The translations under genes and the position numbers were made by a program. From NCBI RefSeq assembly GCF_017798205.1, contig NZ_CP060010.1, forward strand, positions 1,550,001-1,614,000: DNA of 64,000 nt, written 5' to 3'. Shown here one piece after another: positions 13,878-58,711 of this stretch. Within the stretch, counting starts at the first letter, position 1. The number at the start of each line of letters is the position of its first letter. The DNA is from Cognatishimia activa. Its GTDB lineage: Bacteria; Pseudomonadota; Alphaproteobacteria; Rhodobacterales; Rhodobacteraceae. The notes under the pieces were generated by a model, which had not been told where the DNA came from, did not search any database, and saw only the letters and a program-made list of their open reading frames with translations.

Positions 13878-13984
13878 GACTCGTCCTTCGCAAGTTCCGA
13901 ACTACCGTCTCATGCGTGTTTTAAGAGTTCAAGCGGTGTGACGCTTGGTACAGCTTCTAATTTGACCAAAAAGTCAAAATTTAT

Positions 13985-14063
13985 TTGAGAATCATTCGCA
14001 AGTTGCTTGACTTAATTGCGAATAATTCTCAATAACATTGACAGAGTTGAGAATGGTTCTCAT
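13985..14063 (+). promoter_or_regulatory. three Fur/Mur-type boxes upstream of the Mn transporter
   Basis: Three 17-base dyads built from half-sites TTGAGAAT and TTGCGAAT: TTGAGAATCATTCGCAA (13985-14001), TTGCGAATAATTCTCAA (14016-14032) and TTGAGAATGGTTCTCAT (14047-14063). Their centres are 13993, 14024 and 14055, exactly 31 bases apart. The sequence resembles sites of Mur, the manganese-responsive Fur-family repressor of sit operons in Alphaproteobacteria (known of the family). A TTGACT at 14007 could be a -35, placing the second and third boxes over the promoter. No Fur/Mur gene lies in the window. Confidence 0.75.
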
Positions 14064-14090
14064 ATTCAATTGGAAATCGAAGGAAACCCA

Positions 14091-25050: not shown

Positions 25051-26151
25051 CTAATCGCCGAGTCGAGAAATTCCGGCGTCCTCAGACACCGTCAGGTACT
25101 GCGCCCGGTCTCCTAGCGCATCAAACAAGTGGTTTTCGGTGCCGGTCATCCAAGCCTGAGCCTTTAAGTCAATAAGCTCATCATACAACGCAGCGCGCCT
25201 ATCCGCGTCCAGATGGGCAGCCACTTCGTCCAAGAGTAAGATCGGCGGCGTTCCAAGTGTGTCAGCGAGGGCGCGGGCGTTGGCGAGGATCAAAGAGATT
25301 AGGAGCGCCTTTTGCTCGCCTGTCGAGCAGTCTGATGCGGGAACATCCTTGGCGATATAGGTTGCGGAGAGGTCGGAGCGGTGCGGGCCAACTAGGGTCC
25401 GACCGGCGATGAGATCACGATTGCGGCTTTCCGCAAATGCTTCGCGAAAGGCATCCTCAGAGGTCGGGCTCTCGCCTTCGCTTTGCTGTAGATTCAGATC
25501 GGCGATTGGGAAAGCGGTTGAGGTTTTCCGTTGCGCCTCAGTGAGTTGCGCGAGGGTAGCCAGACGGTTGGCATGTATCTGCGCCGCGCATTTCGCCATT
25601 TGATCCTCGAGCGCTTTATACCAATGTGCATCGCGAATCTGTTCTTTCAAAAGCCGGTTGCGTTCCCGCATGGTCTTTTCGTAGGTCAGTGACGCTTCGG
25701 CATGGTCAGGAAAGAAGGACAAAGCTGTTCGGTCCAAAAACCGCCGTCGTCCTTCGGCGCCTTCGATCCACAAACGGTCCATGGCGGGAATAAGCCAGAT
25801 CACACGGCACAGCGCGCCGAGTTTAGTCTGTGGGGCCGTTTTGTCGTTGATTTTAACCTGACGGGCCGCGCCGCTTTCGGACCAGGTCTCGATTTCCTGA
25901 GTGCCTTCAGATGACGTCAGAATGCCGCTGAGTTTCCATCCCAAAGCCTCGGGACGGCGCGTCATGTCCTGCGCCGAGGCGCGGCGGATACCCCGACCGG
26001 GCGAGAACAGCGAGACGGCCTCTAGGATATTGGTTTTACCTGCGCCATTGGGCCCATAGATCGCGACTGGGCGCGCGTCACAGCTTATTTCGCTGGCCTT
26101 ATGGCTGCGAAAATGACTGAGTTTCAGCTGGGTCAGCGCAAGCTGTGTCAT
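25051..26151 (-). CDS. recF: DNA replication and repair protein RecF
   Basis: SMC-like ATPase that helps load RecA at gapped DNA. The 366 residues contain Walker A GPNGAGKTNILEAVSLFSPG, the RecF segment VIWLIPAMDRLWIEGAEGRRRFLDR, GRTLVGPHRSDL, the signature STGEQKALL and Walker B PPILLLDEVAAHLD. Downstream of dnaN on the same strand, separated by 61 bases that hold a double hairpin. Confidence 0.96.
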   Translation of the reverse strand: MTQLALTQLKLSHFRSHKASEISCDARPVAIYGPNGAGKTNILEAVSLFSPGRGIRRASAQDMTRRPEALGWKLSGILTSSEGTQEIETWSESGAARQVKINDKTAPQTKLGALCRVIWLIPAMDRLWIEGAEGRRRFLDRTALSFFPDHAEASLTYEKTMRERNRLLKEQIRDAHWYKALEDQMAKCAAQIHANRLATLAQLTEAQRKTSTAFPIADLNLQQSEGESPTSEDAFREAFAESRNRDLIAGRTLVGPHRSDLSATYIAKDVPASDCSTGEQKALLISLILANARALADTLGTPPILLLDEVAAHLDADRRAALYDELIDLKAQAWMTGTENHLFDALGDRAQYLTVSEDAGISRLGD

Positions 26152-26160
26152 GACCGGTCT

Positions 26161-26205
26161 CGTTTTCTTTCAAAGAAAACGGCGCGGAATTTCTGGAAAA
26201 TTCCG
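26161..26205 (-). repeat. 45-bp double-hairpin element, copy between dnaN and recF
   Basis: Read along the operon (minus) strand, two 21-base dyads are separated by CGC. The first is CGGAATTT / AAATTCCG with a five-base loop; the second is CGTTTTCTTT / AAAGAAAACG with a single central base. Size, order, orientation to transcription and the CGC linker match the element at 57653-57697, although the arms differ. It occupies most of the dnaN-recF gap. Confidence 0.8.
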
Positions 26206-26212
26206 CCCTGCC

Positions 26213-56816: not shown

Positions 56817-57635
56817 ATGCTAGACAATTCCGACAGCTACGTCACCGAGGACGGCCGCACCATTGGCGGCGTGGTGATGGAGATGAAAAACATCACTCTG
56901 CGCTTTGGCGGCGTGGTGGCGATCAAGGATATTTCCTTTGATATTCGTGAGGGCGAAATCCGCGCGATTATCGGGCCGAACGGGGCGGGGAAGTCCTCGA
57001 TGCTGAACGTGATCTCGGGCTTTTATAACCCGCAGGAAGGTGACGTTTATTATAAAGGTGCGCTGCGCCCGCCGATGAAACCTTATCAGGTGGCGCAACA
57101 GGGCATAGCGCGGACATTCCAGAACATTGCGTTGTTTGAGGGCATGACCGTTCTCGACAACATCATGACAGGTCGTTTGAACCACATGAAGGCGGGGCTT
57201 TTTGCGCAGGCAATCTGGAAGGGCAAGGCTGAGGCCGAAGAGGTCGCGAACCGCGAAGTCGTCGAAAAGATCATCGACTTCCTCGAGATTCAATCCATCC
57301 GCAAAACGCCTGTTGGCCGCTTGCCCTATGGTCTGAAGAAACGCGTAGAACTTGCGCGTGCTTTGGCGGCTGAGCCTTCTATCCTGCTGCTGGATGAGCC
57401 AATGGCGGGGATGAACGTCGAAGAAAAAGAGGACATGAGCCGCTTTATCCTCGATGTGAACGATGAATTTGGTACGACGATTGCGCTGATCGAACACGAC
57501 ATGGGCGTTGTGATGGACCTGAGCGACCGCGTGGTCGTGATGGATTATGGCAAAAAGATCGGTGACGGCACGCCCGATGAAGTGCGCAGCAATCAGGCGG
57601 TGATCGACGCTTATCTGGGGGTATCACATGACTGA
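56817..57635 (+). CDS. LIV-type ABC transporter ATP-binding protein (LivG-like)
   Basis: A 272-residue ABC ATPase: Walker A GPNGAGKSSMLNVISGF, signature region RLPYGLKKRVELARAL, Walker B ILLLDEPMAGMN and switch His in LIEHDMGVVMDLSD. The LPYG and EHDM features mark the LivG branch of branched-chain-amino-acid-type importers. Separated from the permease by 89 bases that hold a double hairpin. Confidence 0.93.
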   Translation: MLDNSDSYVTEDGRTIGGVVMEMKNITLRFGGVVAIKDISFDIREGEIRAIIGPNGAGKSSMLNVISGFYNPQEGDVYYKGALRPPMKPYQVAQQGIARTFQNIALFEGMTVLDNIMTGRLNHMKAGLFAQAIWKGKAEAEEVANREVVEKIIDFLEIQSIRKTPVGRLPYGLKKRVELARALAAEPSILLLDEPMAGMNVEEKEDMSRFILDVNDEFGTTIALIEHDMGVVMDLSDRVVVMDYGKKIGDGTPDEVRSNQAVIDAYLGVSHD

Positions 57636-57652: not shown

Positions 57653-57697
57653 CGGAGTTTTTCAAAAACTCCGCGCCGAATTCTTTCAAAGAATTCG
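57653..57697 (+). repeat. 45-bp double-hairpin element, copy between livG-like and livH-like genes
   Basis: Two perfect 21-base dyads separated by CGC: CGGAGTTTTT-C-AAAAACTCCG (57653-57673) and CGAATTCTTT-C-AAAGAATTCG (57677-57697). Same size, order and linker as the element between dnaN and recF, read in the direction of transcription. It lies inside the operon and could be an mRNA processing or stabilising structure; it lacks a terminator tail. Confidence 0.85.
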
Positions 57698-57724: not shown

Positions 57725-58711
57725 ATGTCTGATACCTTTATCTTTGGCATGGAAGTCTTCCTCAATGGCCTTATGGCCGGGGTGCTTTATGCTCTTGTCG
57801 CGCTGGGCTTTGTCTTGATCTACAAAGCCTCGGGCATCTTTAACTACGCTCAGGGTGTTATGGCGCTTTTCGCCGCGATGACTTTGGTGGGCATCATGGA
57901 AGGCCGAGTGCCCTTTAGCCACCTGATCAATGCGATCTTTGGCACCCATATCCATCATTTTGGCTGGCATTTGCCCGCGGTGTTTGGCATCGCTTTCACC
58001 GTCGCCGTCATGGCAGCTTTTGCCTGGTGCGTGCAAAAGTTCATCTTCCGCCATCTCGTGGGTCAGGAACCGATCATCCTTTTCATGGCGACCATTGGTC
58101 TTGCCTATTTCCTCGAAGGATTTGGCGACTTGATGTGGGGCTCTGACATTAAGAAACTCGATGTGGGTCTGCCCCAAGGCATCAACCTGTTGATTGATGA
58201 GACCACCTATGGCTGGTTCGGCTATGGCTTCTTTATCGACAACCTCGATCTTGTGGCGACGGTGATTGCAGCGCTCCTCGTGATCTCGCTAATCATCTTT
58301 GCGCAATACACCAAACAGGGGCGTGCAATGCGCGCTGTGGCGGATGATCACCAAGCCGCGCTGTCCGTGGGCATCTCGCTCAACTTCATCTGGGTCATGG
58401 TCTGGACGCTCGCAGGGTTCGTCGCGCTGGTCGCAGGCATCATGTGGGGCACCAAATCGGGAGTGCAGTTTTCGCTGTCACTGATTGCTCTCAAAGCCCT
58501 TCCAGTTCTGATGCTCGGCGGCTTTACTTCGATCCCCGGAGCCATCGTGGGTGGTCTGATCATCGGCGTCGGTGAAAAGATGTTTGAATTCCTCGTCGGC
58601 CCACTGGTGGGCGGCGCAACAGAGAACTGGTTCGCCTATGTACTGGCGCTTTTGTTCCTCGTCTTTAGGCCACAAGGCCTCTTTGGCGAAAAAATCATCG
58701 AGAGGGTCTGA
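57725..58711 (+). CDS. LIV-type ABC transporter permease (LivH-like)
   Basis: A 328-residue inner-membrane protein with about eight helices. GLMAGVLYALVALGFVLIYKASGIFNYAQG is the typical LivH opening. The EAA-like region follows near GRAMRAVADDHQAALSVGIS, and LGGFTSIPGAIVGGLIIGVGE near the end. AAGGGAGG precedes ATG 57725. Forms the channel with the LivM-like protein. Confidence 0.93.
   Translation: MSDTFIFGMEVFLNGLMAGVLYALVALGFVLIYKASGIFNYAQGVMALFAAMTLVGIMEGRVPFSHLINAIFGTHIHHFGWHLPAVFGIAFTVAVMAAFAWCVQKFIFRHLVGQEPIILFMATIGLAYFLEGFGDLMWGSDIKKLDVGLPQGINLLIDETTYGWFGYGFFIDNLDLVATVIAALLVISLIIFAQYTKQGRAMRAVADDHQAALSVGISLNFIWVMVWTLAGFVALVAGIMWGTKSGVQFSLSLIALKALPVLMLGGFTSIPGAIVGGLIIGVGEKMFEFLVGPLVGGATENWFAYVLALLFLVFRPQGLFGEKIIERV

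Follow-up and report, generated by a model that had tools for sequence, protein, structure and literature searches.

Paired palindromes, a patchily distributed repeat family found mostly a few bases from stop codons in Rhodobacteraceae

The window, the whole 64,000-nucleotide stretch of Cognatishimia activa DNA that was analysed, carries a 45-base element between two genes of an ABC transporter. On the plus strand, positions 57653-57697 read CGGAGTTTTTCAAAAACTCCG-CGC-CGAATTCTTTCAAAGAATTCG, and each 21-mer is a perfect 10-base dyad around one base. A second copy lies on the minus strand at 26161-26205 and reads CGGAATTTTCCAGAAATTCCG-CGC-CGTTTTCTTTGAAAGAAAACG. The features of the two sites are as follows.

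56817..57635, plus strand: ATPase gene of the branched-chain amino acid ABC type, livG-like; its stop lies 17 nt before the focal element
57653..57673, plus strand: hairpin A of the focal element, CGGAGTTTTT-C-AAAAACTCCG, also matched by the covariance models
57674..57676, plus strand: 3-base linker CGC of the focal element
57677..57697, plus strand: hairpin B of the focal element, CGAATTCTTT-C-AAAGAATTCG, matched by a half-element pattern too
57725..58711, plus strand: BPD_transp_2 permease gene, livH-like; its start lies 27 nt past the focal element
25051..26151, minus strand: recF-like gene, downstream of the second copy, with a Pfam RecF/RecN/SMC N-terminal domain
26161..26181, minus strand: hairpin B of the second copy, CGTTTTCTTT-G-AAAGAAAACG on the minus strand, a perfect dyad
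26182..26184, minus strand: 3-base linker CGC of the second copy
26185..26205, minus strand: hairpin A of the second copy, with 8-base arms and a 5-base loop
26213..27331, minus strand: dnaN (DNA polymerase III beta clamp); its stop lies 7 nt ahead of the second copy along transcription

Both copies, livG-livH and dnaN-recF, lie within apparent operons. The putative name recF was given from the RecF/RecN/SMC N-terminal domain and the place of the gene beside dnaN. A previous, sequence-only reading had described the copy at 57653 as two perfect 10-base dyads joined by CGC, which was confirmed when the sequence was read again. It had also reported a second copy at 26161-26205 with different, still self-complementary arms. 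That copy exists and its hairpin B is perfect, but its hairpin A has only 8 bp and a 5-base loop.

Five dyads of the same shape (21 bases with 10-base arms, at most one mismatch) occurred in the window, three of them in the two elements. A laxer scan for pairs, with up to 3 mismatches in each dyad and a linker of 0-14 bases, returned 19 pairs where base shuffles averaged 15.8; that shape by itself was thus not above chance. The folding of the two elements gave z values of -2.7 and -2.9 relative to dinucleotide shuffles. When the window was scanned unfiltered with covariance model R2, built from 44 copies that include both window copies, the two known elements were the only convincing places. 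No Rfam 15 family matched the window at the gathering score. Elsewhere in the window, at 13983-14065, three similar AT-rich dyads (around GAATNATTC) recur at a spacing of 31 bases and are followed by AAGGAAACCCAATG within 10-30 bases; they resemble iron boxes of the Fur/Irr type.

The focal element belongs to a dispersed family of repeats, which we named paired palindromes. Its members are two different AT-rich palindromes of about 21 bp, 2-4 bases apart, mostly a few bases from stop codons. The genome of the window (G000, Cognatishimia, one contig of 3,252,335 bases) held about 30 copies. With one mismatch allowed, the hairpin B half-pattern TTCTTTNAAAGAANNCG matched 19 places and the hairpin A half-pattern CGGANNNTTTNAAANNNTCCG matched 26 (24 exact, 2 with one mismatch), and reversed control patterns gave no match in the same genome. 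Each of the 19 B places and of the 24 exact A places belonged to a pair of palindromes. One of the two one-mismatch A places lay within a pair, and the other, at 1177503, does not look like a copy. Extraction, which required a palindrome pair, yielded 27 elements with the consensus CGGAAACTTT-N-AAAGTTTCCG, linker ACGT, CGATTTCTTT-N-AAAGAAATCG. The linker had 4 bases in 25 of these 27 and 3 bases only in the two window copies; among copies from four other genera the 3-base linker was the commonest (42/55). The exact 21-3-21 architecture proposed by the sequence-only reading thus holds for the focal copy and fails as a rule in its own genome, where 25/27 extracted copies are 21-4-21.

Covariance model R1 was built from 25 copies of this genome, with both window copies deliberately excluded, and it recovered them at E 7.8e-14 and 5.9e-10. 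It marked further places at 207765, 1856960 and 3138788, and a weaker one at 502574; the one inspected, 1856960, was a copy with one C-A mismatch. Clustering of copies near dnaA was too weak to be of weight (Rayleigh p about 0.09 for 30 positions in G000 and 0.04 for 15 listed positions in G011, a genome of another genus). Judged by eye, the copies of the window's genome showed no clear strand excess on either side of dnaA.

Pairing between the arms was almost complete and was retained where the sequence changed. In the 25-copy set, 99.2% of 500 pair cells held standard pairs, with 32 two-sided and no one-sided changes, against shuffled means of 89.7% paired and 6.5 two-sided changes. Among 44 copies of the 45-base form from five genomes, 99.6% of cells were paired (103 two-sided vs 2 one-sided changes), and among 19 copies from 16 genera outside the model 100% were paired (41 vs 1), both sets being best matches, from the part of each match list that was fetched, of models that reward pairing. 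Shuffles reached the count of further pair types in 30/500 cases for the 44-copy set and 172/500 for the 19-copy set; the other covariation measures were reached by no shuffle, or by 1/500 for one measure. A cleaner test came from the own genome, where CGGANNNTTTNAAANNNTCCG does not constrain three of the pairs, and these were fully formed at each of the 24 exact places. The earlier suggestion that the sequence changes while pairing is kept was therefore borne out in all three sets, and the covariation that was to be sought with covariance models is clearly present.

The quality of the pairing was also distinctive. Pairs 1-9 of 84 elements comprised 1501 Watson-Crick pairs, 3 G-T pairs and 8 other mismatches in 1512 cells, a percentage lifted slightly by leaving out three copies of the sister genome G006 (L216-L218, which parsed poorly, with one hairpin shortened in at least L216 and one imperfect in L218) and the C-A mismatch copy at 1856960. 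Set A4 omitted L240, which was misparsed, and set A3 omitted the copies with other linkers (13/55). The 19-copy set held one G-T pair in 342 cells. The innermost pair was relaxed, with 139/168 Watson-Crick against 165-168/168 at each of the other nine, a pattern compatible with a 3-base loop. No element carried the same 9-base arm in both of its hairpins (0/84). When hairpins were shuffled within five genomes, the mean numbers of same-arm pairs were 5.9, 3.5, 5.1, 1.5 and 0.2, and the probabilities of none were 0.001, 0.018, 0.002, 0.17 and 0.81, respectively; the A and B arm vocabularies are partly distinct in any case. The two-hairpin fold was the minimum-energy structure in 102/103 elements, and the arms were AT-rich, with 31-48% GC in loci of 56-68% GC. 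In three of the other genomes (G013, G010 and G028; loci L161-L200, L214 and L215), the base before hairpin A paired with the first linker base in 35/42 copies and the last linker base paired with the base after hairpin B in 31/42, so that the stems there often have 11 bp with about one base between them.

The distribution of the family was patchy. Nine genomes of the genus were compared, and only G000 and G006 carried the family; the other seven gave no R1 match, except for one genome with a single match at E 0.07. The livG-livH gap lacked the element in all seven, and three further sites of the window's genome, which could be aligned in six, three and one of these genomes, lacked it there as well. 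R1 found rich sets in four genomes of other genera (G010, G011, G013 and G028) and a few good matches in two (G026 and G029). At E 0.1 it gave weak matches in 9/24 genomes outside Rhodobacteraceae, the best at E 5.6e-4, which we took for chance. In a covariance-model search of Rhodobacteraceae, of the kind that the sequence-only reading had called for, with one genome per genus, R2 matched at least 62 of 295 genera at E 1e-6 or better, a lower bound with 21 candidates scored per genome. Across the class, 3/289 genomes matched, all three within Rhodobacteraceae, and none outside the family did so at E 1e-6.

Copies were also found on plasmids of named strains, one of Ponticoccus alexandrii and one of Tropicibacter oceani. 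Plasmid searches with three other alleles returned 0, 1 and 2 records. A plasmid search with the focal sequence itself was set aside, since its 8 records (rhizobia, agrobacteria and Klebsiella) stood at E 6, the level of chance, and a search of IMG/VR phages with one exact, narrow pattern gave no match. Among the titles and abstract openings retrieved from the open-access literature, none reported such a repeat family for Rhodobacteraceae. The Rhodobacterales motifs described in passages of PMC8632094 and PMC2864571 are different, being associated with cco, cysS and metK.

The comparison of sister species revealed strong constraint on the arms. The joined flanks of 15 loci of the window's genome were searched in the nine genus genomes and the matching stretches were read. 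The sister genome G006 (the Cognatishimia sp. DT_16 assembly) had the element at 14 of them and lacked it at the site of G000 1230730, which was left out of the divergence count for that reason. At that site (G006:C215:27739-29390, L159) about 1.3 kb of other DNA lay between the flanks. Over the 14 shared loci, the arms differed at 5/504 positions (1.0%), all one-sided with no mirrored doubles, the inner loop bases at 3/56 and the linker at 2/54, while the non-coding flanks differed at 138/732 (18.9%). Codon positions 1, 2 and 3 differed at 6.2%, 2.8% and 26.3% (the third, 349/1328). The arms thus diverged less than second codon positions (Fisher p 0.022), and selection on the element, as the sequence-only reading had supposed, is supported by the contrast with third positions. 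The unpaired central base differed in 13/28 hairpins, above third codon positions (p 0.028), a hint that the hairpin tip is mutable and changes fast. Inversion of the whole palindrome was considered as the origin of these central-base changes and rejected, as the changes, judged by eye, were not mainly to the complement.

These data bear on the idea of a selfish repeat that serves no host function, is spread by a trans-acting enzyme and has its palindromes maintained by template switching between the arms during replication. The empty sites and the patchiness would suit it (two of nine genus genomes rich and seven without a confident match; at least 62/295 genera), and E. coli is known to undergo template switching at quasipalindromes (PMC7202029). 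However, template switching without selection should leave mirrored double changes, and the five arm changes between the sister species were all one-sided, within flanks that differed at 19%. Nor was there any match to Y1_Tnp (PF01797, the RAYT domain), the one transposase family searched for, in the five carriers G000, G006, G010, G011 and G013, on which ground we rejected mobilisation by a RAYT. We regard the selfish repeat as improbable.

The position of the copies relative to genes was uniform. According to gene calls from our own script, 36 of 82 elements in five genomes lay between convergent genes and 40 between codirectional genes, the rest being one between divergent genes, one within a called gene and four at an edge; gaps of at least 20 bases in the window gave a background of 23 codirectional, 7 convergent and 8 divergent. 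The nearest flanking stop was 1-25 nt away in 69/76 measurable cases, two overlapped a called gene end and five were farther off. In the window's genome 24/27 copies were at most 17 nt from a stop. Codirectional elements lay nearer the upstream stop than the next start in 38/40 cases (p 1.5e-9). The counts depended somewhat on the caller. With a longest-ORF caller the 27 own copies split into 14 codirectional, 11 convergent and 2 divergent, with a codon-trained one into 14, 13 and 0. In the GC-rich genomes G013, G010 and G028, the first training placed 15/42 inside a called gene and 11/42 between divergent genes, calls that we judged to be antisense shadow frames; retraining on third-position GC, chosen after the first result had been seen, left 22 codirectional and 17 convergent copies, none divergent, 1 inside a gene and 2 at an edge. 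A further 20 elements from 17 genera, less well called because one gene model served all genomes, comprised 7 codirectional, 5 convergent, 3 divergent, 1 inside and 4 edge. Public annotation agreed for one copy, that on the Ponticoccus alexandrii plasmid (RefSeq-annotated), which has a convergent stop on either side, at 15 and 7 nt; the Tropicibacter oceani copy overlaps the 3' end of an annotated 69-codon fragment. In the Ponticoccus copy one pair is G-T and one outer pair is open; the Tropicibacter copy shows neither.

These positions do not bear out the proposal that the element is a feature of polycistronic mRNA, given the 36/82 elements between convergent genes. The order from A to B ran along transcription in 17 of the 40 codirectional elements and against it in 23. 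The sequence-only reading would have been undermined if copies showed neither orientation bias along the operon nor covariation; the bias is absent, and the covariation is described above.

Since each hairpin has the T-rich 5' arm of its partner behind it, a bidirectional or partial terminator using that arm as a weak U-tract was considered. Such a device would sit past stop codons and between convergent genes, would be indifferent to orientation and would have T-rich 5' arms after each hairpin in both directions, all as observed; a simple scan marked the element's own hairpin as terminator-like through the partner's T-rich arm in 5/27 own loci (L051, L004, L008, L033 and L041). However, TTTT occurred in none of 206 flanking 8-mers, which held at most 5 T in 8, and the nearest T-rich stretch began only 5-6 bases past the stem, after a CG. 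The same scan found a separate terminator-like hairpin already following the element in 8/27 own loci, in the order stop, element, terminator (L002, L053, L055, L006, L018, L020, L026 and L037), and two copies lie inside the apparent livG-livH and dnaN-recF operons. A terminator of this partial kind is therefore quite unlikely. The canonical intrinsic terminator was rejected for want of a U-tract in the 206 flanking 8-mers, the five loci having passed a lax scan. At two loci (L030 and L054) a terminator-like hairpin precedes the element when counted from the stop, and these copies may not be transcribed from that gene.

The two window sites differed in the rest of the genus. All seven other genomes had a different hairpin in the dnaN-recF gap (window 26152-26212), AAGGCC(C/T)CCG...CGGAGGCCTTA, which occurred at one place per genome with up to 3 mismatches allowed (loci L122-L128). 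G000 and G006 hold the paired palindrome there in its stead. This single locus suggests, and does not prove, that a hairpin behind dnaN is useful whatever its sequence. The livG-livH site, empty in 7/7, indicates that no hairpin is needed there in those genomes.

The family shares much with known repeats. Double-hairpin elements of fungal and algal mitochondria have a similar name and two-hairpin shape, a likeness by description to organellar elements that are regarded as mobile. REP-like repeats have long been known, and PMC12306157 treats their function as unsettled. As in the REP/BIME dimers described by Di Nocera 2013 (PMC3733652), paired palindromes are short, extragenic and multicopy, often dimers of unlike units and patchy among relatives. 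The CGTC REPs treated there lack a linked transposase, and the five paired-palindrome carriers searched gave no Y1_Tnp match. The BIME trait of pairing was seen in 27/27 own copies, with linkers of 3 or 4 bases there and 2-4 in other genomes. According to the same paper, REPs of the GTAG and CGTC superfamilies often lie less than 20 bp from 3' ends, mainly between convergent or codirectional genes. In contrast to these, as far as that text describes them, paired palindromes have no constant tag, loops of 1-3 rather than 4-5 bases and AT-rich stems, and the extracted copies are always a pair with a linker of 2-4 bases. A constant GTAG tag was absent, by eye, from the linkers of the 27 own copies and from the linkers and 14-base flanks of 60 others. 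CGTC spanned the linker and hairpin B in 10/27 own copies, and linkers in other genera include gtc, ggc and gcc. Copies did not have the CGTC-tagged REP format of a CGTC end, an 8-9 bp stem, a 4-5 base loop and a CCA-like tail, the loop here having 1-3 bases and the tail being judged by eye. The names Rhodobacter, Ruegeria, Roseobacter and Paracoccus are absent from the main text of PMC3733652.

Two systems with known effects on mRNA are also comparable. According to PMC12306157, E. coli REPs no more than 15 nt from a stop codon dampen translation, and paired palindromes resemble these in having a hairpin a few bases past the stop; about 11% of E. coli REPs are so placed according to that source, against most of the paired palindromes. 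In the Rhodobacter puf operon, as described in PMC6238624, intercistronic secondary structures give the segments of one mRNA different lifetimes. The structures resemble ours, by description, in lying between operon genes of the same bacterial family, and they differ in being a single locus rather than a repeat family.

The placement just past stop codons, the relaxed innermost pair, the two-hairpin fold in 102/103 elements and the order of stop, element and terminator at eight loci together make a transcribed 3' hairpin pair the likeliest reading. We put at about 45% the probability that paired palindromes are patchily distributed REP/BIME-like repeats, maintained as double hairpins that are transcribed at the 3' ends of mRNAs. 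Copies would have been gained in some lineages and then inherited by descent. Once transcribed, each would fold into two adjacent hairpins of 9-10 bp in the 3' UTR or the intercistronic gap, and the pair would form a barrier close behind the terminating ribosome. Such a barrier may shield the upstream message from 3'-to-5' decay or set a processed 3' end, roles ascribed to REP elements and to the puf intercistronic hairpins. Since transcription at convergent sites reads both strands, Watson-Crick pairs would have the advantage over G-U. At livG-livH, the element would let the ATPase and permease segments of the message have separate fates.

Some observations weigh against an RNA reading. G-T pairs are few (3/1512 and 1/342) though about half of the sites are codirectional, and AT-rich arms would be a strange choice for stability. 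The order of A and B has no polarity along the transcript, and the 20-element set includes three divergent copies and one inside a gene. The sequence-only reading had taken RNA rather than DNA as the target of selection; this finds no support, as 3 G-T pairs in 1512 cells are unexpected for a one-stranded RNA helix. The role which that reading offered, an RNase site or a stabiliser, may still apply. The rarity of G-T pairs and the AT-richness point to a need for both strands, met either by convergent transcription of both or by a DNA structure. A DNA-level element, a duplex or cruciform at gene ends that might absorb supercoils or bind a nucleoid protein and keeps self-complementarity in both strands, would account for the few G-T pairs, for AT-rich arms in GC-rich genomes, for the many convergent sites without orientation preference and for a central base free to vary (13/28). 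On the other hand, a fixed-sequence protein site would not carry several different mirrored arm sequences per genome, a distance of a few bases from stop codons is more natural for an RNA reader, and the relaxation of the innermost pair resembles that in a hairpin loop, although the spacer within a protein site could produce it too. We consider such a DNA element rather unlikely.

The transcribed hairpin pair remains our preferred reading, and the constraint and placement point to a real, as yet putative, job at gene ends. It is unlikely, but conceivable, that paired palindromes are a dedicated Rhodobacteraceae punctuation mark of gene ends, read by a putative new protein that recognises two unlike tandem hairpins as RNA or extruded DNA. 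If true, this would explain why the two hairpins are always unlike (84/84), why nearly all pairs are Watson-Crick and why the arms diverge less than second codon positions. Paired palindromes combine tight geometry, strict pairing, uniform position and measurable constraint with copies in named strains, which makes the question of RNA or DNA directly testable, and covariance models from the family explain many intergenic gaps in Rhodobacteraceae.
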